Source: Clostridiales bacterium (GTDB lineage Bacteria > Bacillota > Clostridia > Christensenellales > Aristaeellaceae). Taken from it: a stretch of DNA of 64,000 nucleotides. A model generated the notes under the pieces. That model had not been told where the DNA came from and did no database searches. It saw nothing but the letters and a program-made list of their open reading frames with translations. A program made the position numbers and the translations under genes. Position 1 is the stretch's first letter. Every line of letters starts with the position of its first letter. Location of the stretch: NCBI GenBank assembly GCA_015056145.1, contig SVGY01000001.1, positions 310,001 to 374,000 on the forward strand, in the 5' to 3' direction. Below are positions 2,375 to 31,927 of this stretch, one piece after another.

Positions 2375-2396
2375 AACAGCGGAAATCTGGGAAAAC

Positions 2397-2425
2397 TTGA
2401 CATTTGCTTTTGTGGGGAGTATATT
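2397..2425 (+). promoter_or_regulatory. Strong predicted promoter of the LacI-type regulator gene
   Basis: TTGACA (2397-2402) and TATATT (2420-2425) are 17 bases apart. Transcription would begin near 2432, inside the palindrome at 2430-2439, which suggests direct autoregulation. Confidence 0.75.
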
Positions 2426-2429
2426 AAAA

Positions 2430-2439
2430 CAAACGTTTG
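2430..2439. promoter_or_regulatory. LacI-family operator-like palindrome
   Basis: CAAACGTTTG is a perfect 10-bp palindrome with the central CG typical of LacI/GalR-family and CcpA operators. It covers the predicted start point of the promoter at 2397-2425 and precedes a LacI-type regulator gene, so it is probably the regulator's own operator, with maltodextrin as the likely inducer class given the downstream gene. Confidence 0.65.
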
Positions 2440-2481
2440 CACACATGCAAAACCTCACTCCAGCAAAAGGGGGCCTCCGCC

Positions 2482-3489: not shown

Positions 3490-3515
3490 TCTCACTTTCC
3501 AGGAGGCTTTCACTC

Positions 3516-5261: not shown

Positions 5262-5309
5262 AAGATTCCTATAATATCCTCTAAGCAGCATACAAAGGAG
5301 GACGCCGCC

Positions 5310-5885
5310 ATGAAGGAACTGGTGGAAGCCATTCGGGCACAAGGAAAGGGTATCGGAACTGATATCGTAAAGGTGGATATGTTTCTTAATCACCGTCTGG
5401 ATACAGATTTGTTTGTCAAGATGGGTCAGGCTTTTGCCGATGCTTTCAAGCCGGAAACGCCGGATATCGTCCTTACCGTGGAAGCCAGCGGCATCGCTGC
5501 TGCACTGACCACTGCAATGGCCTGTGGCAACGTGCCCGTGATATTTGCCAAAAAGAGCCGTACCCGCAATGTTACCGGTGATGTATACGAAAGCACTGTT
5601 TTCAGCTTCACCCACGGGGTTGAAAACCACATCCGGGTTGCCAAGGATTACATTCCCAGCGGCGCACGAGTACTTATCATTGATGATTTTCTTGCCAACG
5701 GCGAAGCCGCTCAGGGCCTGTGCGATATCGTGCGTCAGGCAGGAGCAGAGGTGTTGGGCATTGGCGTTTGTGTGGAAAAAACCTTCCAGCCCGGCCATCA
5801 AAAACTGGAAGACGACGGCTACAAGGTGGTATCCCTTGCCAAAATCAAAGGTATTGCCAACGGCCAGCTGATTGTAGACGACTGA
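5310..5885 (+). CDS. xpt: Xanthine phosphoribosyltransferase
   Basis: Xpt converts xanthine and PRPP to XMP in purine salvage. The 191-residue length is standard. Visible features are the N-terminal MKELVEAIR segment, VEASGIAAA, the FAKKSRTRN segment shared by Xpt proteins and the PRPP-binding motif VLIIDDFLANG around residues 124-135. AAAGGAGG precedes the ATG. The gene starts only 48 bases after the GH13 gene, leaving no room for the guanine riboswitch that precedes xpt in Bacillus, and no pbuX permease follows. It may be read from the upstream transcript. Confidence 0.93.
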   Translation: MKELVEAIRAQGKGIGTDIVKVDMFLNHRLDTDLFVKMGQAFADAFKPETPDIVLTVEASGIAAALTTAMACGNVPVIFAKKSRTRNVTGDVYESTVFSFTHGVENHIRVAKDYIPSGARVLIIDDFLANGEAAQGLCDIVRQAGAEVLGIGVCVEKTFQPGHQKLEDDGYKVVSLAKIKGIANGQLIVDD

Positions 5886-5925
5886 TTTTCTGACCACTAA
5901 AGAATAAAAAAGGAGCTTGTTTTCC

Positions 5926-7164
5926 GTGGACACACCCTCGTTGCAGATACTGATTATGGTTCTGCTGGTTCTCTTATCTGGATTCTTCTCTGCATCCGAA
6001 ACCGCTTTTTCCGCCCTGAACCGCACCCGTATCAAGAGCATGGCGGACCGGGGCAACAAGCGAGCAGCCTCTGCCCTTGCCCTGTCCGAGCGGTATGACG
6101 ACCTGCTTTCCACCCTTCTGGTGGGAAACAACATCGTCAATATCGCCCTGGCCTCCATCGGCACGGTGTTCTTCGTTGCCTGGCTCGGAAATAACGGCGT
6201 CAGCATTTCCACGGCAGTTATTACTGTCGTTGTGCTGATCTTCGGCGAAATCACCCCCAAGAGCATCGCCAAGGAAAAACCCGAAAGCTTTGCTATGCTG
6301 GTTACGCCGGTCATACGGATGCTGATGCTCCTCCTTACTCCCATCAACTGGCTTTTCAGCAAGTGGAAGCTTCTCATCAGCCGCATTTTCAAGCTGGAAA
6401 GCGACCGCACCTTCTCCCAGGATGAACTGATCACGCTGGTGGACGAAGTTCACCAGGAGGGTGGAATGGACGAGGATGAGAGCGACCTTATCAAGAGCGC
6501 CATCGAGCTGTTCGACGACCGCAGCCTCTACGATATCCTCACGCCCCGTGTGAAGGTGGACGGCATCCCCGTGGATTCCTCACCGGAGGAGATCATCGAA
6601 ATCCTCAAGGAAAGCAATCACTCCCGCATGCCCATTTACGACGACACTCTGGATCATATCGTAGGCGTGCTCCACCAGAAGGATTACTTCCACCGGGTAC
6701 TGCCCGGTGAAGCCACGCTGCAGGAAGCAATGCAGAAACCCCTCTTTGTGCCTGAAACGGCGCAGATATCCAACACCCTCAAGCTGATGCAGCAAACCCA
6801 CAGCCAGATGGCCATCGTGGCGGACGAGTATGGCGGCACTGCCGGCATCGTTACCATGGAGGACATTCTGGAAGAACTGGTTGGCGAAATCTGGGACGAG
6901 CACGACGAAGAAACTGTCAACATCAAAGCCGAAACCAACGGCTGCTTTACCGCCTCCGGCGATACGCCCCTGGATGAGCTGGAGGAAGAGCTGGAGCTGG
7001 AGCTGGAAACCGAGGCCAGCACACTGGGCGGCTGGGTAATGGAGCAAACCGAAAAGGTGCCCAATCCCGGGGACAGCTTCCAGTGGGAAGGCTGGGAATT
7101 TACCGTAATGAAAGCGGACGGCCGCCATGTAATCGAGGTGGAAATCAAGTCCGCAGCCAAATAA
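5926..7164 (+). CDS. CorC/HlyC-type membrane protein (CNNM domain, CBS pair)
   Basis: About 412 residues. The N-terminal CNNM/DUF21 membrane domain (roughly residues 1-190) begins with hydrophobic [15 protein letters not shown], typical of this family. Two CBS domains follow (about 200-320, with [12 protein letters not shown] and [18 protein letters not shown]), then a C-terminal CorC_HlyC transporter-associated domain. These proteins are linked to magnesium or cobalt efflux. I chose the GTG at 5926, ten bases after AAAAAAGGAG. A TTG at 5917 is in frame but only one base from the Shine-Dalgarno. The neighbouring genes give no functional hint. Confidence 0.88.
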
Positions 7165-7174
7165 ATCCATATAC

Positions 7175-7203
7175 GACAGCTGATCATCTCAGCTGTCTTT
7201 TTC
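7175..7203 (+). terminator. Rho-independent terminator after the CorC-like gene
   Basis: GACAGCTGA (7175-7183) pairs perfectly with TCAGCTGTC (7189-7197) across a five-base loop and is followed by a T-rich run. Confidence 0.8.
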
Positions 7204-7347
7204 TTTCTCCTCAGAAAACCTTAATGTTGTTTTCACTAACTCTGCATGCCAATCTCAAGCATCTCATTTTGCTCTGTGCTAAGATAATAACCGTCGGAGG
7301 GAGAAAAAACCAACTCCCCCACTTAAAAGAAAAAGGAGGATTCCATC

Positions 7348-7704
7348 ATGGAATTTCAGAATGGCAACTTTGCATACGAGCAGGAACCCCAGCAGACCCA
7401 GCAGACCCAGCAGCCCGAGGCAGCTCAGGAAGCCAAAAAGGAAGGTATCTTCTCCAAGCTTTTCCGCACCCGCATCAAGGTGGCAAAGGGCGACCTGGCA
7501 ATTATGAACGTATCTTCCCTGTTCCTTATCTTCAGCCTGCTGAGCGCCCTTTGGCTCGTGGTGATCGGCGCCGTTATCGCCCTGCTGCTTGGCTACCGCT
7601 TCTCCATCGAAAAGAATTCTCCCGACTTCTGCGGCGAGTTCAAGGAACTGGTCAAAGATGCCGGAAGCAATGTGCGCAGCGCTGTAAATTCCTTTGTAGA
7701 ATAA
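7348..7704 (+). CDS. Small membrane protein, DUF4342-like architecture
   Basis: A 118-residue protein of unknown function. It starts with a Gln-rich, charged cytoplasmic segment (residues 1-40, with repeated QQTQQTQQ), then a basic stretch KLFRTRIKVAKGD, then one long hydrophobic segment (about 50-90, probably a membrane hairpin) ending GYRFSIEK and an amphipathic C-terminus. The order KVxKGD, IMNVS, hydrophobic block, GYRFSIE resembles DUF4342 proteins, but I am not sure of the match. AAAGGAGG lies nine bases before the ATG. It is flanked by terminators on both sides, so it is transcribed alone. Confidence 0.7.
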   Translation: MEFQNGNFAYEQEPQQTQQTQQPEAAQEAKKEGIFSKLFRTRIKVAKGDLAIMNVSSLFLIFSLLSALWLVVIGAVIALLLGYRFSIEKNSPDFCGEFKELVKDAGSNVRSAVNSFVE

Positions 7705-7724
7705 GATTTACCGCCGGGTAAAAA

Positions 7725-7760
7725 AACTCCCTTGCAGAAAACACACTGCAAGGGAGTTTT
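7725..7760. terminator. Bidirectional terminator between convergent genes
   Basis: AACTCCCTTGCAG (7725-7737) pairs with CTGCAAGGGAGTT (7746-7758). A runs lie to its left and T runs to its right, so it can end both the small membrane protein gene and the convergent gene at 7791-8891. Confidence 0.85.
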
Positions 7761-7790
7761 TCGTATTCTCATTTTTGGGATACAGCCTCA

Positions 7791-8891
7791 TCAGCCGTTA
7801 CCCATATCCTCGGGAACACTTTCCCAGTCAAAGCTCTCATCCTCAGGGAAATCCGGAACATATTCCTCCGCAGGGTAATCTTCAGGAAGGTATACGCCAT
7901 CAAAAGATTCATCGTAAGTTTCCTCAGGCCATTCTTCCTGCCACTGTTCTCCCTGATCGTAAGCGGGTTCCTCGGTCCAGTCGGACCATTGATTCTTGTT
8001 TGCATCCCACAGAGAAAGCTGCTGCTGCATCCAAAGATCGCTGAAATTGTAGTAGAAACTGCTCAGCCCAGCAGGATCATAGCTGAGGGTCATAGGCATG
8101 TACAGCAGGGCTGATTTTGCGCCGTTTACGGGAATCCAGTCCCCTGCAGAATATGCCGGATAACCGCTGATTGCCGGGTCAGACTCAAGACCAGCGCAGT
8201 CCGTAATCAGGTATACGCTGAGGCCGTGCACCTCCACATTGGCATTGGACAGAAACAGCGGCTGCACGGAAATGCTGTCGTTCTGCATGGTTATTGCAGC
8301 CTGACCCACCACATAGAGATTGCTGGCACAGAGATTCACATACTGCACACCGGAGGATCGCAGCTGTTCCAGATCCAGCATAGTGCCCATCATCCAGTCG
8401 TTGGTGATACGCCCGTCCAGATCCCGAAGCCTTACGCCGTAGGTGCAACCGGTGTTGTACTCCATCCTGGGCTGCTGGTGCATGTAGGGAATAGCATATA
8501 CCATATTGCCCACATAAAGCGTAATCAGATAGGGCTCCGTCTGATTATAGGAATAAGGAAGATAGATTACGCCGCTGTCGAACAGTTTGCTCTGGTAGCC
8601 GTAGTCCTTATCCATAAGAAGGGTCTGAGTATTGACCTGCGTCAGGGTGAGACGCACCGGTTCGGCCAGTTCGCTGGATTGGCTCACCTGCTTGATAATG
8701 CGCAGCCCCATCATAGAGGAAGTAAGGTTTTCGGATACATAATCGTTGCTGTTGAGCCGGGATATATCCAGGCTGTCCACATCAAGGGTGAAATAATCCG
8801 CTTCCCCGGCGTGGACAGGCCCCGCAGCAAACAAAAGGCACATAAGCAAACTGTACAGCAGGATGTATTTCTTCCAACCCATCCGTTTCAT
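7791..8891 (-). CDS. Secreted protein of unknown function with acidic C-terminus
   Basis: 366 residues. A signal peptide is clear: KRMGWKK, a hydrophobic core and cleavage after GPVHA near residue 28. The body, rich in Tyr, Ser and Asn (for example SSMMGLRIIKQ and GVIYLPYSYNQ), looks like extracellular beta structure. The last 70 residues are strongly acidic with many Tyr, Trp and Pro (EEWPEETYDESFDG). I recognise no domain. AAGGATGG precedes the ATG at 8891, and a promoter lies at 8952-8980. It is divergent from the peptidoglycan-binding protein gene at 9181. An envelope role is inferred only from secretion and location. Confidence 0.75.
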   Translation of the reverse strand: MKRMGWKKYILLYSLLMCLLFAAGPVHAGEADYFTLDVDSLDISRLNSNDYVSENLTSSMMGLRIIKQVSQSSELAEPVRLTLTQVNTQTLLMDKDYGYQSKLFDSGVIYLPYSYNQTEPYLITLYVGNMVYAIPYMHQQPRMEYNTGCTYGVRLRDLDGRITNDWMMGTMLDLEQLRSSGVQYVNLCASNLYVVGQAAITMQNDSISVQPLFLSNANVEVHGLSVYLITDCAGLESDPAISGYPAYSAGDWIPVNGAKSALLYMPMTLSYDPAGLSSFYYNFSDLWMQQQLSLWDANKNQWSDWTEEPAYDQGEQWQEEWPEETYDESFDGVYLPEDYPAEEYVPDFPEDESFDWESVPEDMGNG

Positions 8892-9180: not shown

Positions 9181-10851
9181 ATGAAGATTCAGCAACATAT
9201 GAAACGGGCCGCAGCCCTGCTGACTGCCCTGATGCTTATGTGCCCCTTTTTCTCAGCCCTTGCAGCGCCCTACGTTACGCTGCAGTACGGCTCCCGGGGC
9301 GATGCCGTGCTGGAACTGCAGCGGGCGCTGGTTTCTCTGGGCTATGATACCAATGGCACCGACGGCAAATTCGGCCGGGGAACCGAAAATGCCGTGAAGC
9401 AGTATCAAAAAGCCATGGGTCTTGTGGTGGACGGTAAAGCCGGCGCCAAAACCCTGGGGCTGCTTTATGCAAGCAAAGAATCCGCAGGATCGTCTTCAGG
9501 TTCCACTGTTCCCCCGGTTATCTCTGTCGGTGCAAGCACCTCCACCAATCCCAACACCCTCAAGTACGGTGACAGCGGAAGCCGTGTGCGTGAGCTGCAA
9601 ACCGCCCTTAAGGTACTGGGCTACAATCCTGGCATAGTGGATGGCAAATTCGGTGCAGGCACGCATTCTGCTGTAGTTGCCTTCCAAAAAGCCAATGGGC
9701 TTACCGCCGATGGCCTCGCAGGCACTCAAACTCAGAATCTGCTCTACTCCAAGGCTGCACAGTCTTCCGGCAGCAGTTCCAGCGGTTCATCCAGTTCCTC
9801 CGGTTCTGTATCCTCCGGCAGCGCTGCGGGGCTGACCCGTACCCTGCGCAGCGGCTGCAGCGGCTCCGATGTGCGGGAAGTGCAAACCCGTCTGAAGGCG
9901 CTGGGGTACTACAAGCTGAACATTGACGGCATCTACGGCAACGGCACCATCGCCGCCGTAAAGGCTTTCCAAAAAAATAACAAGCTCACCGCAGACGGTT
10001 TAGTGGGCAAGCAGACCTATGCCGCACTTTTCGGCTCCTCTGCAAATCCCAATACCGGTTCTTCCAGCAGTTCCTCCGGCTCTTCCAGCACCACTACGCC
10101 TCCTGCCACCGGCGAAAGCGATTCTTCGGACAGCTATCCCACCCTTTCCTACGGTTCCAGCGGTGCCAGCGTCAAAAAGCTGCAGCAGGCCCTGAAAGAT
10201 CTGAAATACAACGTAGGGGTGGACGGACAGTACGGCGCCCTTACCCAGTCTGCCGTGGCCGCTTTCCAGAAACAAAACGGTCTCACTGCTGATGGCGTTG
10301 CCGGCAGCAAGACCCAGGAGCTTCTTTACAGCGGCAGGGGCAAGGAAGCAGACCCCAACGCTGACAGCAACATGGCTCTCCCCGACGGTGTCGGCACAGC
10401 CTCAGGCCCCAGCAAGAGCAAAGTTCAGCTCCTCCACTGGTTCAACGAGGTAAAAGGTACCCTCAAGAGCGGCGACCGTCTCCTGGTATTCGACCCCGCC
10501 ACTAATCTGCAATGGACCCTCCGGGTATACAGCCGGGGCCGCCACTGCGACAGCGAGCCCCTCACCGCCACCGATACCCGCATTATGTACAAGGCCTTTG
10601 GCAACAAGAATTCCTGGGGCCCCAAGGCCGTATACGTCAAGCTCCCTGACGGCCGCTGGACGGTAGCCTCCACCCACAATGTGCCCCACGAAAGCCAAAG
10701 CATCAAGGACAATGAGTTTGACGGCCATCTCTGCGTTCACTTCCTCCGTGATATGGACGAAGCCAAAAAGAACGACCCCAATTACGGTGTGCAGAACCAG
10801 AACGCCATCCGCAAAAAATGGAAGGAAATGACCGGTATTACCGTGGACTGA
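9181..10851 (+). CDS. Secreted protein with four PG_binding_1 repeats and a divergent transpeptidase-like C-terminal domain
   Basis: 556 residues with a signal peptide (basic start, hydrophobic core, cleavage near SALAA). Four PG_binding_1 repeats follow (about 31-98, 121-187, 216-280, 312-376), each of the form LxxGxxGxxVxxLQxxLxxLGY, joined by Ser/Gly-rich linkers. The C-terminal domain (about 412-556) carries HxDxxPxTxxDTRxM, VPH (His503) and GHLCVHF (Cys518). The same arrangement ends the protein at 39200-41839. It looks like a distant relative of YkuD L,D-transpeptidases, whose hallmark is SHGCIR. AAAGGAGG supports the ATG at 9181 rather than the longer frame. Wall binding is secure; catalysis is inference. 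Confidence 0.85.
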
Positions 10852-22127: not shown

Positions 22128-23263
22128 GCAGCCGAGACGGACGAGCCTTCTGCATACAGATCTTCGGCGAAAGCCATGGCCCGGTGGTGGGTGTTACCCT
22201 GGACGGCCTGCCCGCAGGGATCCTTCTTGATGAAAATGAGATTGCAGCCTTCCTCAAGCGACGTGCAGCCGCAGGCAGCCCCATTGCCACCGGCCGCAAG
22301 GAGGAAGATCTGCCCCATATTGTTTCGGGCCTGAAAGACAGCTTCACAACCGGCTATCCCCTTACCGCCCTGTTTTACAACAAGGATGCCCACAGTGCAG
22401 ATTATGGTTTTCTGCCGGATTGCCCCCGTCCCGGACATGCGGATTATCCCGCCATCGTGCGCAGCCATGGCTACGACGATCTCCGGGGCAGCGGCCATCA
22501 CAGCGGCCGCCTCACACTGCCTTATACTTTTGCAGGCGCCGTTGCCATCCAGGTTTTATCACAGTTGGGCATGGAGATATACTCCCATGTGGTTTCTGTG
22601 GGCGATGTAAAGGACGACGAACTGGATCCCCTCTGCCCCGATACTGCTGCCCTGAAAAAGGCTCTGTCCCACCCAGTACCTGCCCTGAACAAAGCGGCCT
22701 CTCAGCAGATGTTCGACGCAATCCTTGCAGCAAAGGCTGAAGGCGACTCCCTGGGCGGCGTGGTGGAGGTCGTTTGCACAAATGCCCCTGTGGGCCTTGG
22801 GGCACCTTGGTTTGATGGCGTAGAAGCCGTGCTGGCAAAGCAGTTTTTCAGCATTCCCGCAGTAAAAGGCGTAGAATTCGGCGCAGGCTTTGCCGCTGCA
22901 ACCATGCATGGCAGTCAGTACAACGATCCCTATCAGTGTGCGGATGGAAAGGTTCAGACCGTCAGCAACAATGCCGGCGGGCTTTTGGGCGGCCTGACCA
23001 ACGGCATGCCCATCACCGCCCGTGTGGCTTTCCGGCCCACCCCTTCCATCTCCAAAGCCCAGCAGAGCATTTCTCTTTCCGCACTGCAAGCAGGCAACGA
23101 GGCAGCCAAAATCCTGGAAGTAAAAGGCCGCCACGACCCCTGTGTAGCCGTAAGGGGCGTGCCCGTGGTAGAAAGCGCCATGGCCGTCGGCCTCTTGGAG
23201 CTGTGGCTTGAAAGAAACGGCGACCAAAGCCTTACAGGAGGCATTCCCCATGCAGAAAAATGA
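22124..23263 (+). CDS. aroC: Chorismate synthase
   Basis: AroC removes phosphate from EPSP to give chorismate, using reduced FMN. The protein has 379 residues. GESHGPVVGVTLDGLPAG near the N-terminus, RPGHADYPAIVRSHGYDD and GSGHHSGRLTLP are the conserved FMN and substrate segments; the last differs from the GGRSSAR of proteobacterial enzymes and is of the GHFSGR type seen in Clostridia. The start overlaps aroA by four bases and the end overlaps the RNA methyltransferase gene by 14 bases, so the three genes form one operon. Confidence 0.95.
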   Translation: MSSRDGRAFCIQIFGESHGPVVGVTLDGLPAGILLDENEIAAFLKRRAAAGSPIATGRKEEDLPHIVSGLKDSFTTGYPLTALFYNKDAHSADYGFLPDCPRPGHADYPAIVRSHGYDDLRGSGHHSGRLTLPYTFAGAVAIQVLSQLGMEIYSHVVSVGDVKDDELDPLCPDTAALKKALSHPVPALNKAASQQMFDAILAAKAEGDSLGGVVEVVCTNAPVGLGAPWFDGVEAVLAKQFFSIPAVKGVEFGAGFAAATMHGSQYNDPYQCADGKVQTVSNNAGGLLGGLTNGMPITARVAFRPTPSISKAQQSISLSALQAGNEAAKILEVKGRHDPCVAVRGVPVVESAMAVGLLELWLERNGDQSLTGGIPHAEK

Positions 23264-24614
23264 AGTGTTGACCCTTACCTGCTCCCGTCTTGGAAGCGAA
23301 CTGGAAGGAATCTGCAACCATGAGGGAATGACGGTTTTTGTGGCAGGCGCCCTGCCTGGCGAAACGGTGGAAGTCCAGGTTTTGAAAGTGCATCCCACCT
23401 ATGCCTTTGCCAAACTGCGCCAGGTGCTGGTGCCCTCTCCCGACCGGCAACAGCCCCCCTGCCCCGTCTACGACAAATGCGGCGGTTGCAGCGGCCAGCA
23501 CATGCTTTACGAAGCTACGCTGGAAGCAAAACGGATGCAGGTTTTCGATTGCTTTACCCGCATTGGTGGACTGAACATCAGCCAAAATGATGTTCCTCCA
23601 GTACTTGGAGCAGATAACCCCTGGCATTGCCGCAACAAGACCGCTCTGCCTGTGGGGGGAACCCCTCAGCAGCCTCAGCTTGGGTTTTACCGCCGCCGCA
23701 GCCACCAGATCGTCCCCATCGAGGATTGTCCCGTCACCATGGGCAGCCTTGCCCCGGTCATCAAGGCGGTTACCCAATGGATGAAATCTGCTCACGTTAA
23801 GCCCTATAACGAAGAAAACGGCAGCGGTTTGCTCCGTCATGTGATCCTGCGCAGCAGCCGCAGCGGCGAAAGCATGGTGCTGATGGTTGCAACAAAAGCA
23901 GAACTGCCCAAAACCGATTTGCTCATCCAGCTTTTGAAAGACAATGTCCCCGGTTTCTGTGCCCTGCATCTCAGCGTAAACAAGGCCCGGAACAATGTCA
24001 TCCTGGGCAAGGATTCCCAGTGTCTCTACGGGGCCGGAGCCATCTACGAAACCCTGCTGGGCCTCCGGTTTGAAATTGCGCCGCTTTCCTTCTTCCAGGT
24101 CAATCCGCCCCAAACCGAGCGACTGTATCAGTGCGCCATCGATCTTGCCCGTTTGAAACCTGACGACATCGTTGTGGATGCTTACGCCGGCGCAGGTACC
24201 ATCGCCCTGTGCATGGCCCGCACAGCAAAGAAAGTCGTCGGCATCGAAATCGTCCCTCAGGCTGTGGAAGCCGCAAAGCGAAACGCCGAAGCCGGCGGCA
24301 TTACCAATGCAGAGTTCCACACCGCCGCAGTGGAGGATCTGCTGCCCGTATTGGTGAAGGACGGCCTTCGCCCCGATGTGATCATGCTGGATCCGCCCCG
24401 GAAGGGTGTGGAAATTCAGGTTGTCGAAGCAGTTCTGAAGGCCCGCCCCCGACGGGTGGTATATGTGAGCTGCCATGTGCCCACCCAGGCCCGGGATATT
24501 AAGCTGCTCTGTGAAGGCGGTTATCGCTTTGAAGCCTGCCAGCCGGTGGATATGTTCTGCTGGGCCGGCGGCGTGGAGAATGTGGCTGTTCTGACCAGAA
24601 ATGGCGGCGACTGA
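23250..24614 (+). CDS. 23S rRNA (uracil-C5)-methyltransferase, RlmD/RlmCD type
   Basis: 454 residues. An N-terminal TRAM domain (about 1-55) is followed by an Fe-S cysteine cluster CPVYDKCGGCSGQHM and a SAM-dependent methyltransferase domain with FFQVNPPQTERLY, VVDAYAGAGTIAL, DPPRKG and YVSCHVPTQARD, where the Cys is the catalytic nucleophile. This identifies the TrmA/RumA group acting on U747/U1939 of 23S rRNA in Firmicutes. The ATG at 23250 has CAGGAGG eight bases upstream and lies inside the end of aroC. The exact target uridine cannot be told from sequence. Confidence 0.9.
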   Translation: MQKNEVLTLTCSRLGSELEGICNHEGMTVFVAGALPGETVEVQVLKVHPTYAFAKLRQVLVPSPDRQQPPCPVYDKCGGCSGQHMLYEATLEAKRMQVFDCFTRIGGLNISQNDVPPVLGADNPWHCRNKTALPVGGTPQQPQLGFYRRRSHQIVPIEDCPVTMGSLAPVIKAVTQWMKSAHVKPYNEENGSGLLRHVILRSSRSGESMVLMVATKAELPKTDLLIQLLKDNVPGFCALHLSVNKARNNVILGKDSQCLYGAGAIYETLLGLRFEIAPLSFFQVNPPQTERLYQCAIDLARLKPDDIVVDAYAGAGTIALCMARTAKKVVGIEIVPQAVEAAKRNAEAGGITNAEFHTAAVEDLLPVLVKDGLRPDVIMLDPPRKGVEIQVVEAVLKARPRRVVYVSCHVPTQARDIKLLCEGGYRFEACQPVDMFCWAGGVENVAVLTRNGGD

Positions 24615-24655: not shown

Positions 24656-24684
24656 TTACATTTGCAAATGTACTCCCCTAATAC
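24656..24684 (+). promoter_or_regulatory. Promoter of the acylation operon
   Basis: TTACAT (24656-24661), 17-base spacer, TAATAC (24679-24684), 28 bases before the first ATG of the operon. A perfect palindrome fills the spacer. Both boxes are moderate matches, as expected for a regulated promoter. Confidence 0.55.
24657..24672. promoter_or_regulatory. Perfect 16-bp palindrome, candidate operator of the acylation operon
   Basis: TACATTTGCAAATGTA is a perfect palindrome overlapping the -35 box and spacer of the predicted promoter. A dimeric repressor bound here would block RNA polymerase. No regulator gene is adjacent, so its binding protein is unknown. Confidence 0.6.
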
Positions 24685-24711
24685 GCTTATTACCAAAGGA
24701 GATCTGGCATA

Positions 24712-26040
24712 ATGCGGATAAAAAGACTTTTGAAAATCCTTGCATTTGCAGGCATTTTTCTGGTTCTCTTTTCTATTGTTTCCAAAATACTGGTCGCCCC
24801 CAACGATTACCGCAACTATCAGCGGGTGGGCGGGTTCTATGAAGAGCCTGAAAATTCCCTGGATGCTGTGTACATCGGTTCCAGTACCTGCTATGCCTTC
24901 TGGAATCCGATGGTGGCATGGGATAAATACGGTCTGGCCATTTATCCCTACAGTGCAAATTCCCAGCATTTCATCGCAGCGGAGCATCTGATCCGGGAAG
25001 TGCGCAAAACCCAGCCCGATGCGCTTTTCATCGTCACCATCAACACCATTGACGATGAAAAAATGAATGTATTTGAATTTCACTACCAAATCGACTATAT
25101 GCCCTTCTCCCTCAACAAGTTGAGCCTTATCAGGCATCTTTCCAAAAACGCAAATCTCCCCTTCCGGGAAGAAATGGAGCTGTACCTTCCCTTCTACCGT
25201 TATCATGAACGCTGGAGCCAGCTGGATCCCCAGGATTTCAAGTACCAGGTTGACGGCCTGAAAGGCGTCAGCACTTATTCCACCTATAACTACGGCATCT
25301 TCGATATTTCCTCCATGTATGCCAGCACCGATGAAATCATCCCCCCTGCGGACTACGTCAACGATTCGCTGATGAGTCTGATGGACTTTTGCGAAGAAGA
25401 AAACGTCAACGTTCTTTTCGTGACGGTTCCCCGTGCGGAAAGCGTGACCCGTGTGGCTGAGCTGAACTATATTAACTCCATGCTGGAAAGCAGGGGCTTT
25501 GCAACCCTGAACCTGCTCAAACATCCGGAGGCAATGAAATTCGACTATACTCAGGACTTCTATAATGAGGGCCACACCAACCTGCATGGTTCCATCAAAT
25601 ATACCAGCTTCCTGTCCGAATACCTCATTGAACATTATGGCTTTAAAAGCCACCACGGCGACGCTCTCTACAACGGCTGGGGTGCCGGCTACGAAAAATA
25701 CAGCCCAACGATGTTCATCTATGCGCTGGATATCGAAATGGATGTTGATCACCGCACCACGGACTTACTGAAACCCGGCAATCTGACGGCTGTCGCCGAC
25801 GGGCAGAACATTTCCGTAACATGGGAAGCATCTGAAGGGGCCGAAGGCTATGCTGTATACCGCAAAGCCTACAAAGGCTGTTGGGAGAGGCTTTCCACCA
25901 CGGAAGAACTGTGCTTTACAGATTCTGGCGCACAAACCGGCATTCAGTACCAGTACACTGTGGTTCCCTTTTGCACCTCAGATGGCGAAACCTTCTACGG
26001 CTGTTTTGACTATCTTGGCGCATTTATAGAATTGCAGTAA
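24712..26040 (+). CDS. DltD/AlgX-like SGNH-fold protein with C-terminal Fn3-like domain
   Basis: 442 residues. One N-terminal membrane anchor (residues about 8-28) puts the rest outside. The SGNH-type block I motif VYIGSSTCYAFW contains the putative nucleophile Ser57, and the late DFYNEGHTNLHG segment (Asp282, His288 or His292) supplies the rest of a triad. This resembles DltD and other partners that pass acyl groups from MBOAT proteins to surface glycans. Residues about 355-442 (PGNLTAVADGQNISVTWEAS to the end) look like a fibronectin type III domain, unusual for DltD. It is first in a five-gene operon. A role as final acyltransferase is inferred. Confidence 0.8.
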   Translation: MRIKRLLKILAFAGIFLVLFSIVSKILVAPNDYRNYQRVGGFYEEPENSLDAVYIGSSTCYAFWNPMVAWDKYGLAIYPYSANSQHFIAAEHLIREVRKTQPDALFIVTINTIDDEKMNVFEFHYQIDYMPFSLNKLSLIRHLSKNANLPFREEMELYLPFYRYHERWSQLDPQDFKYQVDGLKGVSTYSTYNYGIFDISSMYASTDEIIPPADYVNDSLMSLMDFCEEENVNVLFVTVPRAESVTRVAELNYINSMLESRGFATLNLLKHPEAMKFDYTQDFYNEGHTNLHGSIKYTSFLSEYLIEHYGFKSHHGDALYNGWGAGYEKYSPTMFIYALDIEMDVDHRTTDLLKPGNLTAVADGQNISVTWEASEGAEGYAVYRKAYKGCWERLSTTEELCFTDSGAQTGIQYQYTVVPFCTSDGETFYGCFDYLGAFIELQ

Positions 26041-26071
26041 CCAAAGAAGAAAACAAAGGTGGTACGAACCA

Positions 26072-27745
26072 ATGAGTTATCAATCGTTTGGCTTTTTGTT
26101 TTTCTCAGCCGCAGTGCTCCTGCTTTATTATCTGCTGGGAAAAAAGCTGCAGCGCTGGGTGCTTGCGGTCGCCAATCTGGTTTTCTACACTGTTGCAGGC
26201 CCGCAATATCTGCCCTTTATCCTCGTAACCATGCTGGCGACCTTCTTCACCGGCAAAAAAATGGGCGGCATCTATGAAGCAGCTGAGACACAGCTTGCCG
26301 CCTGTACAACGCCCGCAGAAAAAAAGGCCGTAAAGGCAAATGCAAAAAAGAAAGCGAAAACCGCACTGATCATCGGCATGGCTGTAACCATTGCGTTGCT
26401 TGCTGTTTGCAAATACACCGGCTTTGTTATGCGCAACATAAACCAGATTCTCAAACTTTTCCATGCGCCAAAGCTGCCTGTTTTCAAGCTGATCCTTCCC
26501 CTGGGCATCTCCTTTTATTCTTTCATGGCGCTGAGCTATGTGCTGGATGTATTCTGGAAGAGATATCCTGCCGAAACCAATTTCCTGAACTATGCAGTAT
26601 ATCTTTCCTATTTTCCCCATGTGGTTCAAGGCCCTATCGACCGCTTTAACGAATTCAACGCCCAGATTCAGGACGGTGTCAAGTTTGACAGCAAGAATCT
26701 GGTCTTTGGTTCGGAGCTGCTGCTTTTTGGCCTGTTTAAGAAACTGGTCATCGCCGACCGGCTTGCTCCCTTTGTAACCCATGCCTTCGGTTTCTGGAAG
26801 GAAACCAACGGCGCATTCCTGTTTGTAGCCATGCTGGCCTATTCTGTTCAGATTTACGCTGATTTTTCCGGATGCATCGATATCGTCACCGGTGTTTCCG
26901 AAATGTTCGGCATCAAGCTGCGCAAGAATTTCAACCATCCTTATTTTTCCAAAACCATGGGCGAATTCTGGCGGCGCTGGCATATCTCCTTGCAGGAATG
27001 GTTCAAGGATTATGTGTACTACCCCGTTTCTGCCTCCGGGCTGATGCGCAAAGCCAAAAAGCACTTCAACCAAAAAAACAAGCCCCGTGCAGCGGAGCTA
27101 TTCTCCTCCTGCTTCCCCATCCTTGTGGTGTGGCTGATTACCGGCATTTGGCACGGCGCCTCCTGGAATTACATCATCTGGGGCATCTATCACGCCATCC
27201 TGCTCATTGGCAGCCAGATATTCTCACCCCTGTTCCAGAAGGCAAACCAGCGGCTGAAAATCAATGTTTCTTCTCCCCTGTGGAAATTCTGGCAGATGAC
27301 CCGCACCTTCCTTCTGTGCGGCTTTGGACGGATTTTCTTCCGGGCCAACTCTGTAACAGGCGCTCTGGGCTATTTCGGACAGATGTTCACACAATTTTCA
27401 TTCAAAGCTCTGTTTACGCCTCTGTACAACGGGCTGAAAAATGTATATAGTTATTTTACATCTTCCGGCAGCATAACCAGCTTCTGGCTGAAGCTGCGGC
27501 CGGAGCTCAACAGGGATTTTGGCCTGGGTATCACCCCTGCCAATATCATGATGGCCCTTGTAACCATTCTGATTTTGTGGTGTGTGGATATGCTTCAGGA
27601 AAAGCATTCTCTTCGTGAATCCCTATTAAGAAAGCACATCATCATCCGCTGGACGATCATCTTCGCCGGATTGTTTGCAGTGATCGTCTTCGGCGTTTAC
27701 GGCCCCGGATATAATGCGAAAAGCTTTATATACGAACAATTCTGA
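26072..27745 (+). CDS. MBOAT-family membrane O-acyltransferase (DltB/AlgI/PatA-like)
   Basis: 557 residues, polytopic. MBOAT hallmarks are FKLILPLGISFYSFMALSYV, YFPHVVQGPIDRF, MGEFWRRWHISLQEWFKDYV and GIWHGASWNYIIWG, where His361 is the invariant active-site histidine. Such proteins move acyl groups from an intracellular thioester carrier across the membrane to hydroxyls on teichoic acids, alginate, peptidoglycan or exopolysaccharide. The start at 26072 lies 31 bases after the SGNH gene and the carrier gene follows by 29 bases. The acyl group is not D-alanine by default: the ligase and transporter in this operon differ from dlt. Confidence 0.93.
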   Translation: MSYQSFGFLFFSAAVLLLYYLLGKKLQRWVLAVANLVFYTVAGPQYLPFILVTMLATFFTGKKMGGIYEAAETQLAACTTPAEKKAVKANAKKKAKTALIIGMAVTIALLAVCKYTGFVMRNINQILKLFHAPKLPVFKLILPLGISFYSFMALSYVLDVFWKRYPAETNFLNYAVYLSYFPHVVQGPIDRFNEFNAQIQDGVKFDSKNLVFGSELLLFGLFKKLVIADRLAPFVTHAFGFWKETNGAFLFVAMLAYSVQIYADFSGCIDIVTGVSEMFGIKLRKNFNHPYFSKTMGEFWRRWHISLQEWFKDYVYYPVSASGLMRKAKKHFNQKNKPRAAELFSSCFPILVVWLITGIWHGASWNYIIWGIYHAILLIGSQIFSPLFQKANQRLKINVSSPLWKFWQMTRTFLLCGFGRIFFRANSVTGALGYFGQMFTQFSFKALFTPLYNGLKNVYSYFTSSGSITSFWLKLRPELNRDFGLGITPANIMMALVTILILWCVDMLQEKHSLRESLLRKHIIIRWTIIFAGLFAVIVFGVYGPGYNAKSFIYEQF

Positions 27746-27774
27746 CAAAAAACATTATCAGGAGGTAGCTTATC

Positions 27775-27996
27775 ATGGATCAACTCAAAGAAATGCTTCA
27801 GAACAAATACCCCGCCATCGACTTCGACAGTGAAAAAAAACTCACTTCCTCCGGTATTCTGGATTCCATGGCCGTTGTGAACATCATTGCGGAAATCGAG
27901 AACCTGTTTGATATTTCCGTAACCATGGAATACATCCAGCCCAAGTACTTTGAGTCCGTGGAAACTATGTGGGAGATGGTGGAGGAACTGATGTGA
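27775..27996 (+). CDS. Acyl carrier protein, DltC-like
   Basis: 73 residues. SSGILDSMAVVNII holds the phosphopantetheine attachment serine (Ser31 in LDSM), and the rest is the acidic four-helix carrier fold. Its sequence around the serine is nearer to DltC and other dedicated carriers (GLLDS type) than to fatty-acid ACP (DSLD type). AGGAGG lies nine bases before the ATG. The next gene starts inside its stop codon (GTGA), tying its expression to the transporter. Predicted to carry the acyl group from the AMP ligase to the MBOAT protein. Confidence 0.9.
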   Translation: MDQLKEMLQNKYPAIDFDSEKKLTSSGILDSMAVVNIIAEIENLFDISVTMEYIQPKYFESVETMWEMVEELM

Positions 27997-29432
27997 AAAA
28001 AGATTTTGCTTTGCTGAAAAAACACAAAAGACTGCTTCTGACCCTTGGCGGCCCGGCCCTCTTTGCACTATGCCTGCTTCTGCCGGAAAGCGTCTTCCCG
28101 GCGCTTAAGGCCCGCTATGCCATTGGCACGGTAGCGTGGATGGCCTTCTGGTGGATTACCGGCCCTGTGGATTTTGCGGTAACGGCGTTCCTTCCCATCG
28201 CCCTCAATGCCCTGCTCCAGATTGCAGATATGTCTGCGGTGATCGCCAATTACGCATCGGAGACCATTCTGCTGCTCCTGGGTGCATCCATCCTGACGGT
28301 TTCCTGGGAGGAAACGGGGCTTGACCGCCGCATGGCAGCCAAGTTTCTTTCCCTTGTGGGCAGCAATCTGCGCTCCCAGGTCATCTTCTGGTTCCTCCTG
28401 TGCGCATTTCTTTCCTCCATCCTGCCCAACGCCGTAGTTTGTGCCGCCGTCACCCCCATTGCGGTATCCATGCTGCGCTATGTAGGTCAGGCCGACATTG
28501 CCAAGAGCAAGTCGGGTTCGCTGCTGCTGTTGACCATCGCCTACGCCACCGGTGTAGGTGGCCTGGCCTCCCCCCTTGGCGGCGCAATGAACCTTGTTAC
28601 CGTTGACTATCTGGAACAGGTGACCGGCCAGGAATTCATGTATATTTCCTGGGTGGTTCGCTTCCTGCCCATTATGGCCATCCTGATTGTGAGCAATATC
28701 CTGATCCTGCTCATCGGCTGCAAAAAATCCGATCAGCTGGGCGGCTCCCGGGAGTACTTCATCAACCAGTACAAAGCCATGCCCAAAATCTCTTCTGAGG
28801 AACTTATTTCCCTGTGCCTGTTCCTGCTGGCAACTCTGCTTGCCTTCACCCGCCAGCTGTACCAGAACCTGCTGCCCGGTCTGAAACCGGCCTATGTTTT
28901 CATCATCTGTGCAATCCTGTCCTTCCTGATCACCCGCAAGGACGGCAGCCGCCTGATGACCTGGAAAAAGGCACAGACCAAAATCGGCTGGGAGCTGATA
29001 TACGTCTTTGCAGGCGGCCTGGCTGCAGGCACCCTGATCAGCAAGAGCGGTGCAGCAGATGCCATCGGCGATTTTATCGCCAGCACCAACATGAACGGCG
29101 GCTTTATGACCGTGTTTGCTATCGTCGCCTTCACCGTTATTCTGTCCGATGTTACCAGCAACACGGCCACGGCAGCAGTAGCCATCCCCATTGTAATCAG
29201 CGTGGTGCAGGGCCTTGGGCTCAACCCCATCCCCTATATCTACATCGCCTCCATCGGCGTCAACCTTTCCTACATGCTGCCCACCTCCATCCGGGCCATT
29301 CCCGTGGGCTATGGGCTTGAACCACGGTATATGCTCAAAAAGGGTGTGCCCATTACCATTGTGGTCATCCTGCTGATGAGCGTTGCAGGATATCTGCTGA
29401 TGAAGTTCTGGCCTGCCTTCAGTACCATCTAA
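27993..29432 (+). CDS. DASS/SLC13-family carboxylate transporter
   Basis: 479 residues and about eleven membrane segments. The GTG start at 27993 overlaps the carrier-protein stop; GGAGG lies seven bases before it. The DASS family takes up di- and tricarboxylates, sulfate or related anions, usually with sodium. The second sodium/substrate motif SNT is intact in SDVTSNTATAAVAIP, while the first appears as LPNA (SSILPNAVVCAAVTP), so coupling or substrate may differ from succinate carriers such as VcINDY. Lying between the carrier protein and the ligase, it probably delivers the acid to be activated. That is the unusual component relative to dlt operons. Confidence 0.88.
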   Translation: MKKDFALLKKHKRLLLTLGGPALFALCLLLPESVFPALKARYAIGTVAWMAFWWITGPVDFAVTAFLPIALNALLQIADMSAVIANYASETILLLLGASILTVSWEETGLDRRMAAKFLSLVGSNLRSQVIFWFLLCAFLSSILPNAVVCAAVTPIAVSMLRYVGQADIAKSKSGSLLLLTIAYATGVGGLASPLGGAMNLVTVDYLEQVTGQEFMYISWVVRFLPIMAILIVSNILILLIGCKKSDQLGGSREYFINQYKAMPKISSEELISLCLFLLATLLAFTRQLYQNLLPGLKPAYVFIICAILSFLITRKDGSRLMTWKKAQTKIGWELIYVFAGGLAAGTLISKSGAADAIGDFIASTNMNGGFMTVFAIVAFTVILSDVTSNTATAAVAIPIVISVVQGLGLNPIPYIYIASIGVNLSYMLPTSIRAIPVGYGLEPRYMLKKGVPITIVVILLMSVAGYLLMKFWPAFSTI

Positions 29433-29445
29433 GGAGATTTGATCC

Positions 29446-30906
29446 ATGTTTGACTCAATCGTACAAGCGGTATTCCATTATGCGGATGTGCAGCCCAACA
29501 AGCTCTGCCTGGCTGATGACCAGAGCGAGGTCACCTATAGCCAGTACCGCCAGCTGATCCAACGCTATGCCGCCGTGTTCCACTCTGCCGGAGTCAGGGC
29601 TGGGGATACTGTATTGGTGGAAGCCTGCCAGACCGTGGAATACCTTGCCATGGAGCTGGCCATTCAGCTGCTGGGAGCCATTTTTGTTCCCGTGGAGCAC
29701 AATTGCGCCAGGGACAAAATTGCATCCTTTGCCAAACGTGCAGAGGCCCGGTGCGTAATCGCCTGCAGCGAAGCCGAATACGGCGTGGAGCATTTCACCT
29801 TCGATCAGCTGCGCACCCAGCAAGTGGAAGCAGCCTGCTATGAACCTGCAGGTTTTCCGGAGGCAGATTCCATTTCGGAAATCCTTTTCAGTACCGGCAC
29901 CACCGGCAAAGAAAAGGGCATCGTCATTACCCACAAAAACAACATTGCCCTTGCGGAAAACGTCATCTACGGTGTGGAAATGGAAAAGGACAACGTGGAG
30001 CTGATCCCCTCCCCCATGAACCATTCCCACGGCCTGCGCCGTTACTACGCCAATATGTACAACGGCTGCACTGTAATCCTGCTGGGCAGTGTGATGAACA
30101 TCCTCCGCTTTTTCCAGGCCCTGGACAAATACGGTGTCAATTCCATCGACCTTGTTCCCACGGCCCTGTCCGTCGTGCTGAAGCTTTCCAAAACCAAGCT
30201 GAGCGAGTATAAAGACCGGCTGCGCTACATCCAGTTTGGCGCAGCCCCCATGATGGAGGCGGATCAGCAGAAAATCTGCCAGCTGCTGCCCCAAACCCGC
30301 CTGTACAACTTCTACGGCAGTACCGAAAGCGGCTGCATCTGCATCTACAATTTCAACCGCCCGGACGATAAGAAGCACTGCATCGGCAAACCGGCTCACA
30401 ATGCGGAAATCATCATCGTGGATGACGAGCATCGCCCCATCAGCTCATCTGCCGAAAATACCGGTCTGCTTGCCAGCATTGGCAAAATGAATATGCCTGG
30501 CTACTGGAAGGACGAAGAAGAGACCAGCCGTGTGCTGATCGACGGCGTGGTATACACCAACGACGTGGCGTACTACGACCAGGACGGCGACATCATCCTG
30601 CTTGGCCGCAAAGGCGATGTGATCAACGTTGGTGGCAACAAAGTATCCCCCGAGGAAATCGAGAATGCAGCCAAGTCCATCCCTGAAGTTGCGGACTGCG
30701 GCGTGATTCCTGTGCCGGACAGCATGAAGGGCAGCGTACCCAAGCTGTTTGTGCAGCTTCAGCCCGGCGCAGCCTTCGATCCCATCGCCATCCGCTCCTT
30801 CCTGGCAGGGAAGCTGGAACCCTACAAGGTGCCGGAGTATATTGAACAAATCCAGCGGATTCCCAGAAGTTACAACGGAAAACTGCTGCGGAAGGAACTG
30901 AAATAA
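29446..30906 (+). CDS. AMP-forming carboxylate ligase loading the operon's carrier protein
   Basis: 486 residues of the ANL superfamily. Motifs are the P-loop LFSTGTTGKEKGIVITH, YGSTESG, the hinge-side LGRKGDVINVGGNKVSPEEI and the C-terminal catalytic lysine in NGKLLRKELK. The overall pattern is nearer to acyl-CoA/OSB-type ligases than to DltA, which points to an acid without an amino group. It should adenylate the acid and transfer it to the carrier encoded at 27775. It is the last gene of the operon, 13 bases after the transporter, and is followed by a strong terminator. Substrate is not predictable by eye. Confidence 0.88.
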   Translation: MFDSIVQAVFHYADVQPNKLCLADDQSEVTYSQYRQLIQRYAAVFHSAGVRAGDTVLVEACQTVEYLAMELAIQLLGAIFVPVEHNCARDKIASFAKRAEARCVIACSEAEYGVEHFTFDQLRTQQVEAACYEPAGFPEADSISEILFSTGTTGKEKGIVITHKNNIALAENVIYGVEMEKDNVELIPSPMNHSHGLRRYYANMYNGCTVILLGSVMNILRFFQALDKYGVNSIDLVPTALSVVLKLSKTKLSEYKDRLRYIQFGAAPMMEADQQKICQLLPQTRLYNFYGSTESGCICIYNFNRPDDKKHCIGKPAHNAEIIIVDDEHRPISSSAENTGLLASIGKMNMPGYWKDEEETSRVLIDGVVYTNDVAYYDQDGDIILLGRKGDVINVGGNKVSPEEIENAAKSIPEVADCGVIPVPDSMKGSVPKLFVQLQPGAAFDPIAIRSFLAGKLEPYKVPEYIEQIQRIPRSYNGKLLRKELK

Positions 30907-30923: not shown

Positions 30924-30970
30924 AAAAAATCTCTGGCCGGAGTTCGTTTCTCCGGTCAGAGATTCCTTTC
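30924..30970. terminator. Bidirectional terminator between the acylation operon and the DUF4097 gene
   Basis: AATCTCTGGCCGGAG (30928-30942) pairs with CTCCGGTCAGAGATT (30950-30964), one G-T pair, flanked by an A run on the left and T-rich bases on the right. Confidence 0.85.
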
Positions 30971-30993: not shown

Positions 30994-31821
30994 TCAGTTG
31001 TTGCCCTGCAGGATCAGATTACCGCTGACGCTGTCGGCCTTGATGATGCATTCTCCATTGCCGCCAACATAGGCCCTGCCGTCCATGGCAGCAGGCAGAC
31101 TGCAGTTCACATCGCCGCTGACGCTGTCCAGTTCCGCCCGGAAACCCGCATCTCCGGGCAGGGAGATCGTCACATTGCCGCTGACGGCGTTTGTTGTAAC
31201 GCTGTCGGGATTGCGGTCAAAGGCGAAGTACATATCGCCGCTGGTGGAATCTGCCGTTAGTTTCTCCACCCGGGCCTGTTCCATCCTGATGCTTCCGGAA
31301 ACCGTGTCGATCTCCAAATTGTCCGCATCCAGTTTGTTCAGGATGATATTGCCGGATACGGTCTCAAAGGTCATGTTCTCCCCTTCCAGGCCCTGCACAT
31401 CAACATCTGCGGAAACGGTAGAGATCTTCACTTCGTCCATTTCCATGTTTTCCGGCAAAAGCACCGTCAACTTTTTGTTCAGGTTCTTGAAGCTTCTGGA
31501 ACCGGAAGCGGCATACTTCACATACAGCTTGTGTCCATCCTTGTACCAGTGGAGCTCTGTCTTACGGCTAAGCTTACCGGATGCTTCTTCTTCAAGGATG
31601 ATCTCGTCGCCATCGTGATAGCGCACTTCCACTCCGCCCTCAATCCAGCTGATATCCATTTCGTTCACCCTGCCGGAAATGCTGGCTCCGCCTGCGGTAT
31701 AGCGTTTGGAGTTCTCGTAGGTATATCCTCCGAACAGGCTGCTGCCTCCGCCGATGCTGCTCAGGCAAATCAGCAGGCACAGGGCTACCACCAGCAACAG
31801 AATATACGTTTTCTTCTTCAT
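30994..31821 (-). CDS. DUF4097 family membrane-anchored protein
   Basis: 275 residues. A single N-terminal membrane segment (KKKTYILLLVVALCLLICL) is followed by a right-handed beta-helix-like repeat region typical of DUF4097: STVSADVDV, ETVSGNIIL, DTVSGSIRM, DSTSGDMYF, NAVSGNVTI, DSVSGDVNC and DSVSGNLIL, spaced 18-22 residues. The ATG at 31821 has a purine-rich AGAAGAGAAG site; the upstream in-frame sequence is outside the membrane segment and unlikely. Such proteins are often associated with envelope-stress regulators in Firmicutes, but no PspC or anti-sigma gene is adjacent here. Confidence 0.85.
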   Translation of the reverse strand: MKKKTYILLLVVALCLLICLSSIGGGSSLFGGYTYENSKRYTAGGASISGRVNEMDISWIEGGVEVRYHDGDEIILEEEASGKLSRKTELHWYKDGHKLYVKYAASGSRSFKNLNKKLTVLLPENMEMDEVKISTVSADVDVQGLEGENMTFETVSGNIILNKLDADNLEIDTVSGSIRMEQARVEKLTADSTSGDMYFAFDRNPDSVTTNAVSGNVTISLPGDAGFRAELDSVSGDVNCSLPAAMDGRAYVGGNGECIIKADSVSGNLILQGNN

Positions 31822-31898
31822 GGTTACTTCTCTTCTTTCTTTGGGCTCCGGCAATAACGGAGGCTTGTGATAGTGGCGTGGCGTTTTTCCACGATGAC

Positions 31899-31927
31899 AG
31901 AATATCACTTTTTCAGAAAAGTTACAA
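31899..31927 (-). promoter_or_regulatory. Predicted promoter of the DUF4097 gene
   Basis: Minus strand TTGTAA (31922-31927), 17-base spacer, TATTCT (31899-31904), leaving a leader of about 70 bases. Confidence 0.5.

Follow-up and report, generated by a model that had tools for sequence, protein, structure and literature searches.

The locus described here raises the question of why an operon resembling the dlt operon for D-alanylation should carry the gene of an anion transporter in its midst. It lies in a stretch of 64,000 nucleotides (referred to as the window) from the draft genome (2.77 Mb in 31 contigs) of a Clostridiales bacterium of the family Aristaeellaceae (assembly GCA_015056145.1, contig SVGY01000001.1, positions 310,001 to 374,000), and consists of five genes on the plus strand (window positions 24712-30906) for a putative SGNH protein, a membrane-bound O-acyltransferase (MBOAT), an acyl carrier protein, a DASS/SLC13-type transporter and an ANL ligase (Table 1). 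A first-pass annotation, made from the sequence alone, had proposed that the cell imports an organic acid, activates it and attaches it to an extracellular glycan. Our comparisons show that the DASS transporter belongs to the acylation unit, and favor, with a probability of about 0.72, a Dlt-like surface-acylation unit equipped with its own acid importer.

The linkage of the transporter to the acylation genes was followed by scanning an alignment of ten DASS members over named genomes, which gave 351 relatives; the best 80 were kept as loci, each with up to 8 kb of flanking DNA per side. Gene orders were derived from tblastn thresholds, so that a carrier or SGNH protein missing from a locus may simply have gone undetected, and genes in GC-rich loci were called with a codon-usage model. 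The transporters of 44 loci are at least 59% identical to the window DASS, with which they form a single supported clade of 45 rows (100/98), and the other 36 fall below this value. Within the clade, 20 loci contain an MBOAT, 28 a ligase, 29 either of the two, 17 a carrier and 14 an SGNH protein, compared with a single ligase (L118, 50% identity) and neither MBOAT, carrier nor SGNH protein among the other 36 (Fisher values of 6e-7 for the MBOAT, 4e-9 for the ligase and 1e-9 for either, relatedness not being corrected for). Genes of the DASS transporter are thus not missing from the homologous operons, a point which the first-pass annotation had proposed to check. The 19 loci combining DASS, MBOAT and ligase display twelve recorded gene orders, some of which differ only by an undetected short gene, with the genes on one strand in each locus; this diversity argues for repeated re-linking. 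In all 19, the DASS transporter is better conserved than either of its two partners, with a median identity of 68% compared with 34% for the MBOAT and 43% for the ligase. The clade extends over Lachnospiraceae, Oscillospiraceae, Eggerthellales, Erysipelotrichaceae, Prevotellaceae, other Bacteroidota and Succinivibrio, including members that do not stem from metagenome-assembled genomes (Kineothrix sp. MSJ-39 and Succinivibrio dextrinosolvens DSM 3072, for example), and has likely been transferred between phyla.

A second line of evidence comes from the replacement of the transporter by other importers. Nine of 200 genomes of the same family contain a ligase relative at E 1e-50 or better, and all nine neighborhoods were examined. 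A DASS gene is present in the window's own genome and in one of another genus (G169), whose transporter is 84% identical and stands in the same MBOAT-carrier-DASS-ligase order. An ABC importer is found exactly between carrier and ligase in G010 and G160 (loci L194 and L195) and elsewhere within the unit in G023 and G128 (L197 and L198), an SSS symporter beside the ligase in G103 (L199), and a distant CitMHS/DASS protein within the unit in G194 (L196), while no transporter was recognized in the ligase neighborhood of G195. The four ABC systems represent one lineage, their binding proteins being 41-80% identical. Taken together, the linkage within the clade and the importer replacement rule out a chance insertion of the DASS gene. 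The replacement also bears on the direction of transport, which would be inward. That the DASS transporter exports excess acid or a side product rather than feeding the ligase is improbable: its relatives in sulfoquinovose-type clusters of Butyrivibrio could indeed export sulfonate products, whose excretion by such pathways is stated in parts of PMC11659671, but the ABC systems found in its place possess a binding protein and are importers.

The ligase matches PF00501 (AMP-binding) with 197.8 bits and PF13193 (AMP-binding_C) with 54.4 bits, both over the cut-off. When aligned to linear gramicidin synthase, its Ser194 falls on the position of the amino-binding Asp and its Arg198 on pocket position 239 (in the numbering of amino-acid pockets, the two are positions 235 and 239). 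The first of these is Ser or Ala in all 26 aligned ligases (window included) and the second is Arg in 25 of them; counted over the ligases from the DASS loci, Arg198 occurs in 29 of 30, the exception being the outlying acidobacterial locus L152. It recurs in the four ABC-linked ligases, in the SSS-linked one and in those of L200, L208 and L209, and is replaced by Gly in the CitMHS-linked ligase of L196. The placement of Arg198 follows from the sequence alignment and from its position inside helix 194-206 of the AlphaFold model (pLDDT 91.5). With Ser or Ala in place of the Asp and Arg at position 239, the ligase is therefore adapted to an acid that lacks an alpha-amino group. As judged from these residues, the pocket is unlike the D-alanine type of DltA, in agreement with the first-pass annotation, and Arg198 would fit a second acidic group on the substrate. 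A Foldseek search with the model ranks a MatB chimera first by E-value, followed by feruloyl-CoA synthetase and other acyl ligases, with MatB near; a MatB-like malonate ligase was considered from this ranking, which is a comparison of folds only. DltA structures appear at ranks 23 and 26, and no dltA model is among the best 25 of 103 NCBIfam matches. Plain D-alanylation is disfavored by the pocket and the profile scores, despite DltA 3l8c at rank 26 having the highest TM-score (0.89) among the 50 listed matches. The same TM-score could be invoked for the idea that the DASS transporter serves ordinary carbon uptake and has been carried along with a D-alanylation unit, as could the four clade loci L083, L101, L112 and L113, which contain neither MBOAT nor ligase despite full 8 kb flanks. 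The many gene orders, the importer swap in the same slot, the conservation of the transporter above that of MBOAT and ligase and the non-DltA pocket make this explanation very improbable.

The transporter itself matches the CitMHS (PF03600, 153.2 bits) and Na_sulph_symp (PF00939, 120.4 bits) families over their cut-offs and aligns over nearly its full length with VcINDY (E 4e-26). Its first SNT motif is changed to P-N-(A/S/V) throughout the clade (Ala in 37, Ser in 7 and Val in 1), while the second SNT is kept in 45 of 45 rows. Arg434 aligns with the Asn of the VcINDY motif PPNAI, the two preceding residues PP are missing in the window DASS, and this Arg recurs in 44 of the 45 clade members, the remaining one having a gap. 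By analogy with the DASS/SLC13 family, the protein is a putative carrier for the Na+-coupled uptake of divalent anions.

The MBOAT matches PF03062 with 86 bits (cut-off 27) and the DltB structures 6bug and 8jem with E 6e-26; apart from DltB, no solved MBOAT gives a match at E 0.001. The His of its WHG motif (His361) is present in 26 and its C-terminal Tyr554 in all of 27 aligned sequences (window included). According to passages of PMC12148441, the corresponding C-terminal MBOAT Tyr of PatA shuttles the acyl group, and outside Dlt the MBOAT-SGNH systems use acyl-CoA without a carrier. Since the shuttle Tyr of the unit is part of the MBOAT C-terminus, a carrier in the style of Dlt occurs here together with a Pat-style fused shuttle. 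This fusion of the shuttle motif to the MBOAT would also explain why the unit contains no separate DltX gene, for which gaps of at most 31 bases leave no room (the remainder of the genome was not searched for DltX). The carrier is barely above the cut-off of PF00550 (PP-binding; 20.9 of 20.8 bits).

The first gene is assigned as putative SGNH/DltD-type from its motifs and a weak Foldseek match. Gly56, Ser58 and His288, representing a GSS motif and a His, are present in all 15 aligned sequences, that of the window among them, and candidates for the acid of the triad are Asp278 and Asp282, found in 14 and 13 of these. The AlphaFold model (pLDDT 90.7) matches the DltD structures 6pfx and 3bma with E-values of 2.3e-4 and 6.6e-4. 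A clear FN3 domain at the C-terminus (about residues 350-442) had been missed by the first-pass annotation.

By analogy with the Dlt and PatAB mechanisms, the unit may operate as follows. The DASS transporter would import a small organic acid, most likely one bearing a further acidic group, which the ANL ligase would adenylate and load onto the phosphopantetheine of the carrier at Ser31. The MBOAT would move the acyl group from the carrier to the Tyr of its own FIYEQF motif and thereby across the membrane, and the SGNH-type protein, with Ser58 and His288 as presumed catalytic residues, would transfer it to a hydroxyl group of a surface polymer. Gene content, families, motifs, the conserved linkage and the exchange of importers have been observed; the inward direction, the transfer steps, the part played by the first gene and the acceptor are inferred. 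A teichoic-like polymer is a possible acceptor, because the draft genome encodes, away from the unit, one glycerophosphotransferase of the teichoic type (PF04464, 231 bits). Both PF03062 matches of this genome fall within the single MBOAT gene of the unit.

A number of observations weigh against this reading. Neither ligase nor MBOAT is found in 15 of the 44 clade loci, and although seven of these have a contig end within less than 2 kb on at least one side, the four with full flanks mentioned above do not. Most loci are contigs of metagenome-assembled genomes, in which binning can err. MBOAT relatives (E 1e-40) occur in 141 of the 200 family genomes, compared with a close DASS match in two (the window's own and G169), so most of them do without a transporter of the window type; DASS matches at E 0.001 are found in 35 of these genomes, the other listed ones being at most 29% identical to the window DASS. 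Wider samples give two matches at E 1e-20 among 297 genomes of the order (the window's own and one at 42% identity) and 35 at 1e-30 among 398 genomes of the phylum. Nine of the latter, not counting the window's own, show 39-53% identity, one of them only over a fragment, and no MBOAT or ligase relative was detected around them by tblastn within about 1.5 kb or among reading frames of at least 100 residues within up to 19 kb. The Arg198-type ligase also occurs without a recognized neighboring importer in L200, L208 and L209; no importer was recognized beside the genes in L200-L205, six of 12 fetched loci, one of which is the ligase locus of G195, nor beside the further ligase loci of G767 (L208) and G240 (L209), taken from sets of 299 and 200 genomes. 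The scores of the Dlt equivalog models remain below their cut-offs for the MBOAT (TIGR04091, 171.9 of 375 bits) and the carrier (NF003464, 33.2 of 68; TIGR01688, 23.9 of 52.35), as does TIGR00785 for the transporter (158.9 of 198.6), and among the matches listed no protein of the unit reaches an NCBIfam cut-off. At E 0.001, neither Pfam nor NCBIfam gives a match for the first gene, its superposition on DltD is poor (rmsd 13-14, TM 0.27-0.36), and a second structure search was filled by FN3 matches; the label DltD/SGNH-like given by the first-pass annotation is therefore a putative one, based on the motifs and the weak Foldseek hit. As far as its sequence goes, the DASS transporter could also work outward. 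Finally, the clade is not tied to one transfer chemistry, because the Bacteroidota loci L093, L099, L108 and L111 and the locus of Succinivibrio dextrinosolvens DSM 3072 (L129) lack an MBOAT.

In these five loci, the DASS gene is accompanied by a ligase and carriers and by KAS III-type proteins, short-chain dehydrogenases/reductases (SDRs) or GNATs within glycan clusters, and in Succinivibrio it adjoins flagellin-modification genes (FliS over the cut-off, PseD- and PseH-like proteins below). The role of the DASS clade thus appears to be the supply of acids for decorating glycans in general. Note that in L095, L103 and L113, loci without the ANL ligase, an ATP-grasp-type protein (identified by profile for L113) is encoded directly beside the DASS gene. 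L152, with a weak ligase match (21.6% identity, E about 1e-11) below the linkage threshold, is labeled as acyl-linked in the tree, where the acyl-linked label needs two changes.

The acid imported would be small, probably with a second acidic group, and a C4-C5 dicarboxylate and an organosulfonate with a carboxylate are about equally supported. A dicarboxylate such as succinate or a relative, yielding a hemi-ester with a free carboxylate, is one tentative candidate. The extracellular glycan would then gain the negative charge, opposite in effect to D-alanylation, that the first-pass annotation supposed. The solved DASS relatives matched here presumably carry dicarboxylate, citrate and sulfate, the second SNT motif is intact, pocket residue Arg198 is consistent with such a substrate, and MatB, a malonyl-CoA synthetase, is among the closest folds of the ligase, which adds weak evidence. 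An MmgE/PrpD-type gene, cut by the contig end, follows the DASS and KAS III genes of L111 (positions 9230-9679). As reported in parts of PMC7568257, two SLC13/DASS genes of Phascolarctobacterium faecium are highly expressed beside a succinate producer; a protein of this species (L140), which may or may not be one of these two, belongs to the wider DASS group. On the other side stand the first DASS motif, which is PNA rather than SNT, and the NitT/TauT-type ABC importer replacing DASS in the siblings. To our knowledge, importers of this type provide no route for C4-dicarboxylates. Moreover, succinate is made inside most cells, so a dedicated succinate importer is hard to explain.

The first-pass annotation had named a dicarboxylate as perhaps the substrate, and Arg198 at position 239 fits the second acidic group this implies; an organosulfonate fits as well, because the sibling importer is SsuA/TauA-like and related DASS proteins occur in C3-sulfonate gene clusters. 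Import of 3-sulfopropionate, sulfoacetate or 3-sulfolactate, which would place a permanent sulfonate on the surface polymer, is just as tentative a candidate as the dicarboxylate. The binding proteins of the sibling ABC systems match the SsuA family best (69.8 bits for L195, 81.5 for L198 and 97.2 for L197, L194 not having been scanned), and the nearest solved proteins to those of L197 and L195 are SsuA, TauA and nitrate binders, all of them weak matches. Related DASS proteins (39-44% identity) are encoded beside HpfG (1436 bits, cut-off 1000) in L070, the same place as L153, and in clusters of Butyrivibrio and Pseudobutyrivibrio with SQase-like (749 of 553 bits) and SftI-like genes; parts of PMC11489063 give 3-sulfopropionate as product of the HpfG/HpfX pathway. 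L078 encodes CysD over the cut-off and, upstream, SsuA over the cut-off (237 of 163.5), and the only genome of 11 with HpfG over the cut-off, G767 (seven others have weaker matches), also has a ligase-MBOAT locus without a recognized importer beside it. The DASS gene of G767 (39% identity) lies in the HpfG cluster. Against these indications stand several others: the acylation clade keeps SNT (45/45), where the sulfonate-cluster group has NST (13/13), the sibling SsuA scores are below the cut-off of 163.5, the binding protein of L198 has no Pfam match and the four ABC systems count as one lineage, SftI is matched with only 408 of the 700 bits required, L153 forms a long branch of unsure position, and G767 is a single case. 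The 13 sulfonate-labeled DASS rows lie on one side of a branch (100/99) inside a group of 20, seven of which are unlabeled. It is doubtful that all members of the DASS superclade have the same substrate, given the different forms of the SNT motif in its acylation and sulfonate groups.

Two observations on gene neighborhoods may be added. The DASS acylation unit of L078 is immediately preceded (440-7818) by CysD, a CysN-like gene (read by eye), an arylsulfotransferase and an importer of the SsuABC type. In L125-L127, L130-L132, L134, L136, L138, L142, L144 and L150, from Butyrivibrio, Pseudobutyrivibrio and other Lachnospiraceae, the DASS gene is part of sulfoquinovose transaldolase-type clusters and possibly represents the sulfonate transporter of that pathway. 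Parts of a study on E. rectale sulfoglycolysis (PMC11968277) gave no match to SLC13, DASS or exporter.

Sister operons of the window unit differ in the genes that accompany the transfer proteins. The MBOAT operons of L203, L204 and L205 encode a carrier, a decarboxylase-like protein in place of an importer, an amino-acid-type ligase (FDFD), an SGNH-like protein and an MBOAT, the decarboxylase being of the pyridoxal phosphate (PLP)-dependent Orn/DAP/Arg type by profile (checked in L204 only); possibly, an amino acid is loaded and then decarboxylated on the carrier before its transfer to the surface. In L201 (3628-14001), MBOAT and SGNH-like genes come first, and the genes after them resemble, as read by eye, those of FabD, a carboxyltransferase, a carrier and an SDR; the acyl group may be synthesized in place. 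L194 (9593-17038) encodes two MBOATs and three SGNH-like proteins within one unit, with one MBOAT having Leu for the His of WHG.

If the proposed reading of an acylation unit with its own importer is true, the surface chemistry of a gut bacterium would depend on the acids of its neighbors, host or diet and not on its own metabolism alone, and the acyl group should vanish when the acid is omitted from the medium. The MBOAT-SGNH machinery would then be modular, with one transfer core and varied acyl-supply modules, namely import in the window and a PLP decarboxylase or acyl synthesis in place in the sister operons. A more doubtful extension is that gut bacteria import an organosulfonate, for example 3-sulfopropionate, and incorporate it into the glycans of their surface. 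In that case the acid would come from the breakdown of plant sulfolipid or host taurine, and a transporter family would have been recruited for acyl supply in Bacillota, Actinomycetota, Bacteroidota and Pseudomonadota.

The five genes are contiguous, as described in the first-pass annotation, which also gave the 4-base overlap of carrier and DASS genes, the bound of 31 bases on the gaps, the carrier Ser31 and the exact end of the unit; its start at 24657 lies 55 bases 5' of the first ATG. Along the unit, the spacing amounts to 31 bases, 29 bases, the overlap and 13 bases. The DASS gene starts with GTG, and a Shine-Dalgarno-like stretch was read by eye before each gene. Of the 14 sites resembling terminators between 24500 and 31100 (6.6 in shuffles, sd 2.4), the hairpin after the ligase gene has the longest stem. 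The upstream neighbor (23208-24614) was read by eye as an rRNA methyltransferase, and the downstream one (30994-31908) is on the opposite strand.

Table 1. Features of the acylation unit in window coordinates, with the evidence for each assignment.
Feature	Position	Strand	Basis
Putative SGNH (DltD-like) acyltransferase: N-terminal helix, SGNH-type domain, C-terminal FN3	24712..26040	+	motifs, weak Foldseek match
MBOAT O-acyltransferase with its own C-terminal acyl-shuttle motif FIYEQF	26072..27745	+	PF03062, DltB structures
Acyl carrier protein, Ser31 in LDSM	27775..27996	+	PF00550
DASS/SLC13-family anion transporter, separate clade (LPNA ... SNTAT ... PTSIRAI)	27993..29432	+	CitMHS, Na_sulph_symp
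ANL-superfamily acid:carrier ligase, Arg198 in pocket helix	29446..30906	+	PF00501, PF13193
Terminator-like hairpin after the ligase	30928..30964	+	15-pair stem, weak T tail

Among known systems, the Dlt system (DltABCD and DltX, D-alanylation of teichoic acids) shares with the window unit the ligase, the carrier, the MBOAT and a putative SGNH protein in one operon. It differs in that the pocket of the window ligase is, by its residues, not of the amino-acid type, that a transporter is contained within the window unit, and that the shuttle Tyr is fused to the window MBOAT, while Dlt has a separate DltX. Acidic acyl groups, of the kind that the window unit would add, are attached to surface polysaccharides by acyltransferase-3 proteins, which belong to a family other than the MBOATs and for which we know of no carrier or linked importer. 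With the DASS/SLC13 transporters VcINDY and NaCT, the window DASS shares the second SNT and, with VcINDY, an alignment over nearly the full length, whereas it deviates from VcINDY in the PNA replacing the first SNT and in the Arg434 replacing the Asn of PPNAI, with PP missing. The PatAB-type MBOAT-SGNH O-acetyltransferases, as described in parts of PMC12148441, have a fused C-terminal hexapeptide with an invariant Tyr and a separate SGNH-type partner in common with the window unit, which in addition possesses a carrier and a ligase; the PatAB class is said there to use acyl-CoA without a carrier. No MBOAT/carrier/ligase unit with a built-in importer was found among the titles and abstract openings listed for openly licensed papers, in line with the statement of the first-pass annotation that it knew of no described system of this composition. 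The unit is real and conserved, and is set apart from these systems by its built-in acid importer and by the pairing of a carrier with an acyl shuttle fused to the MBOAT.

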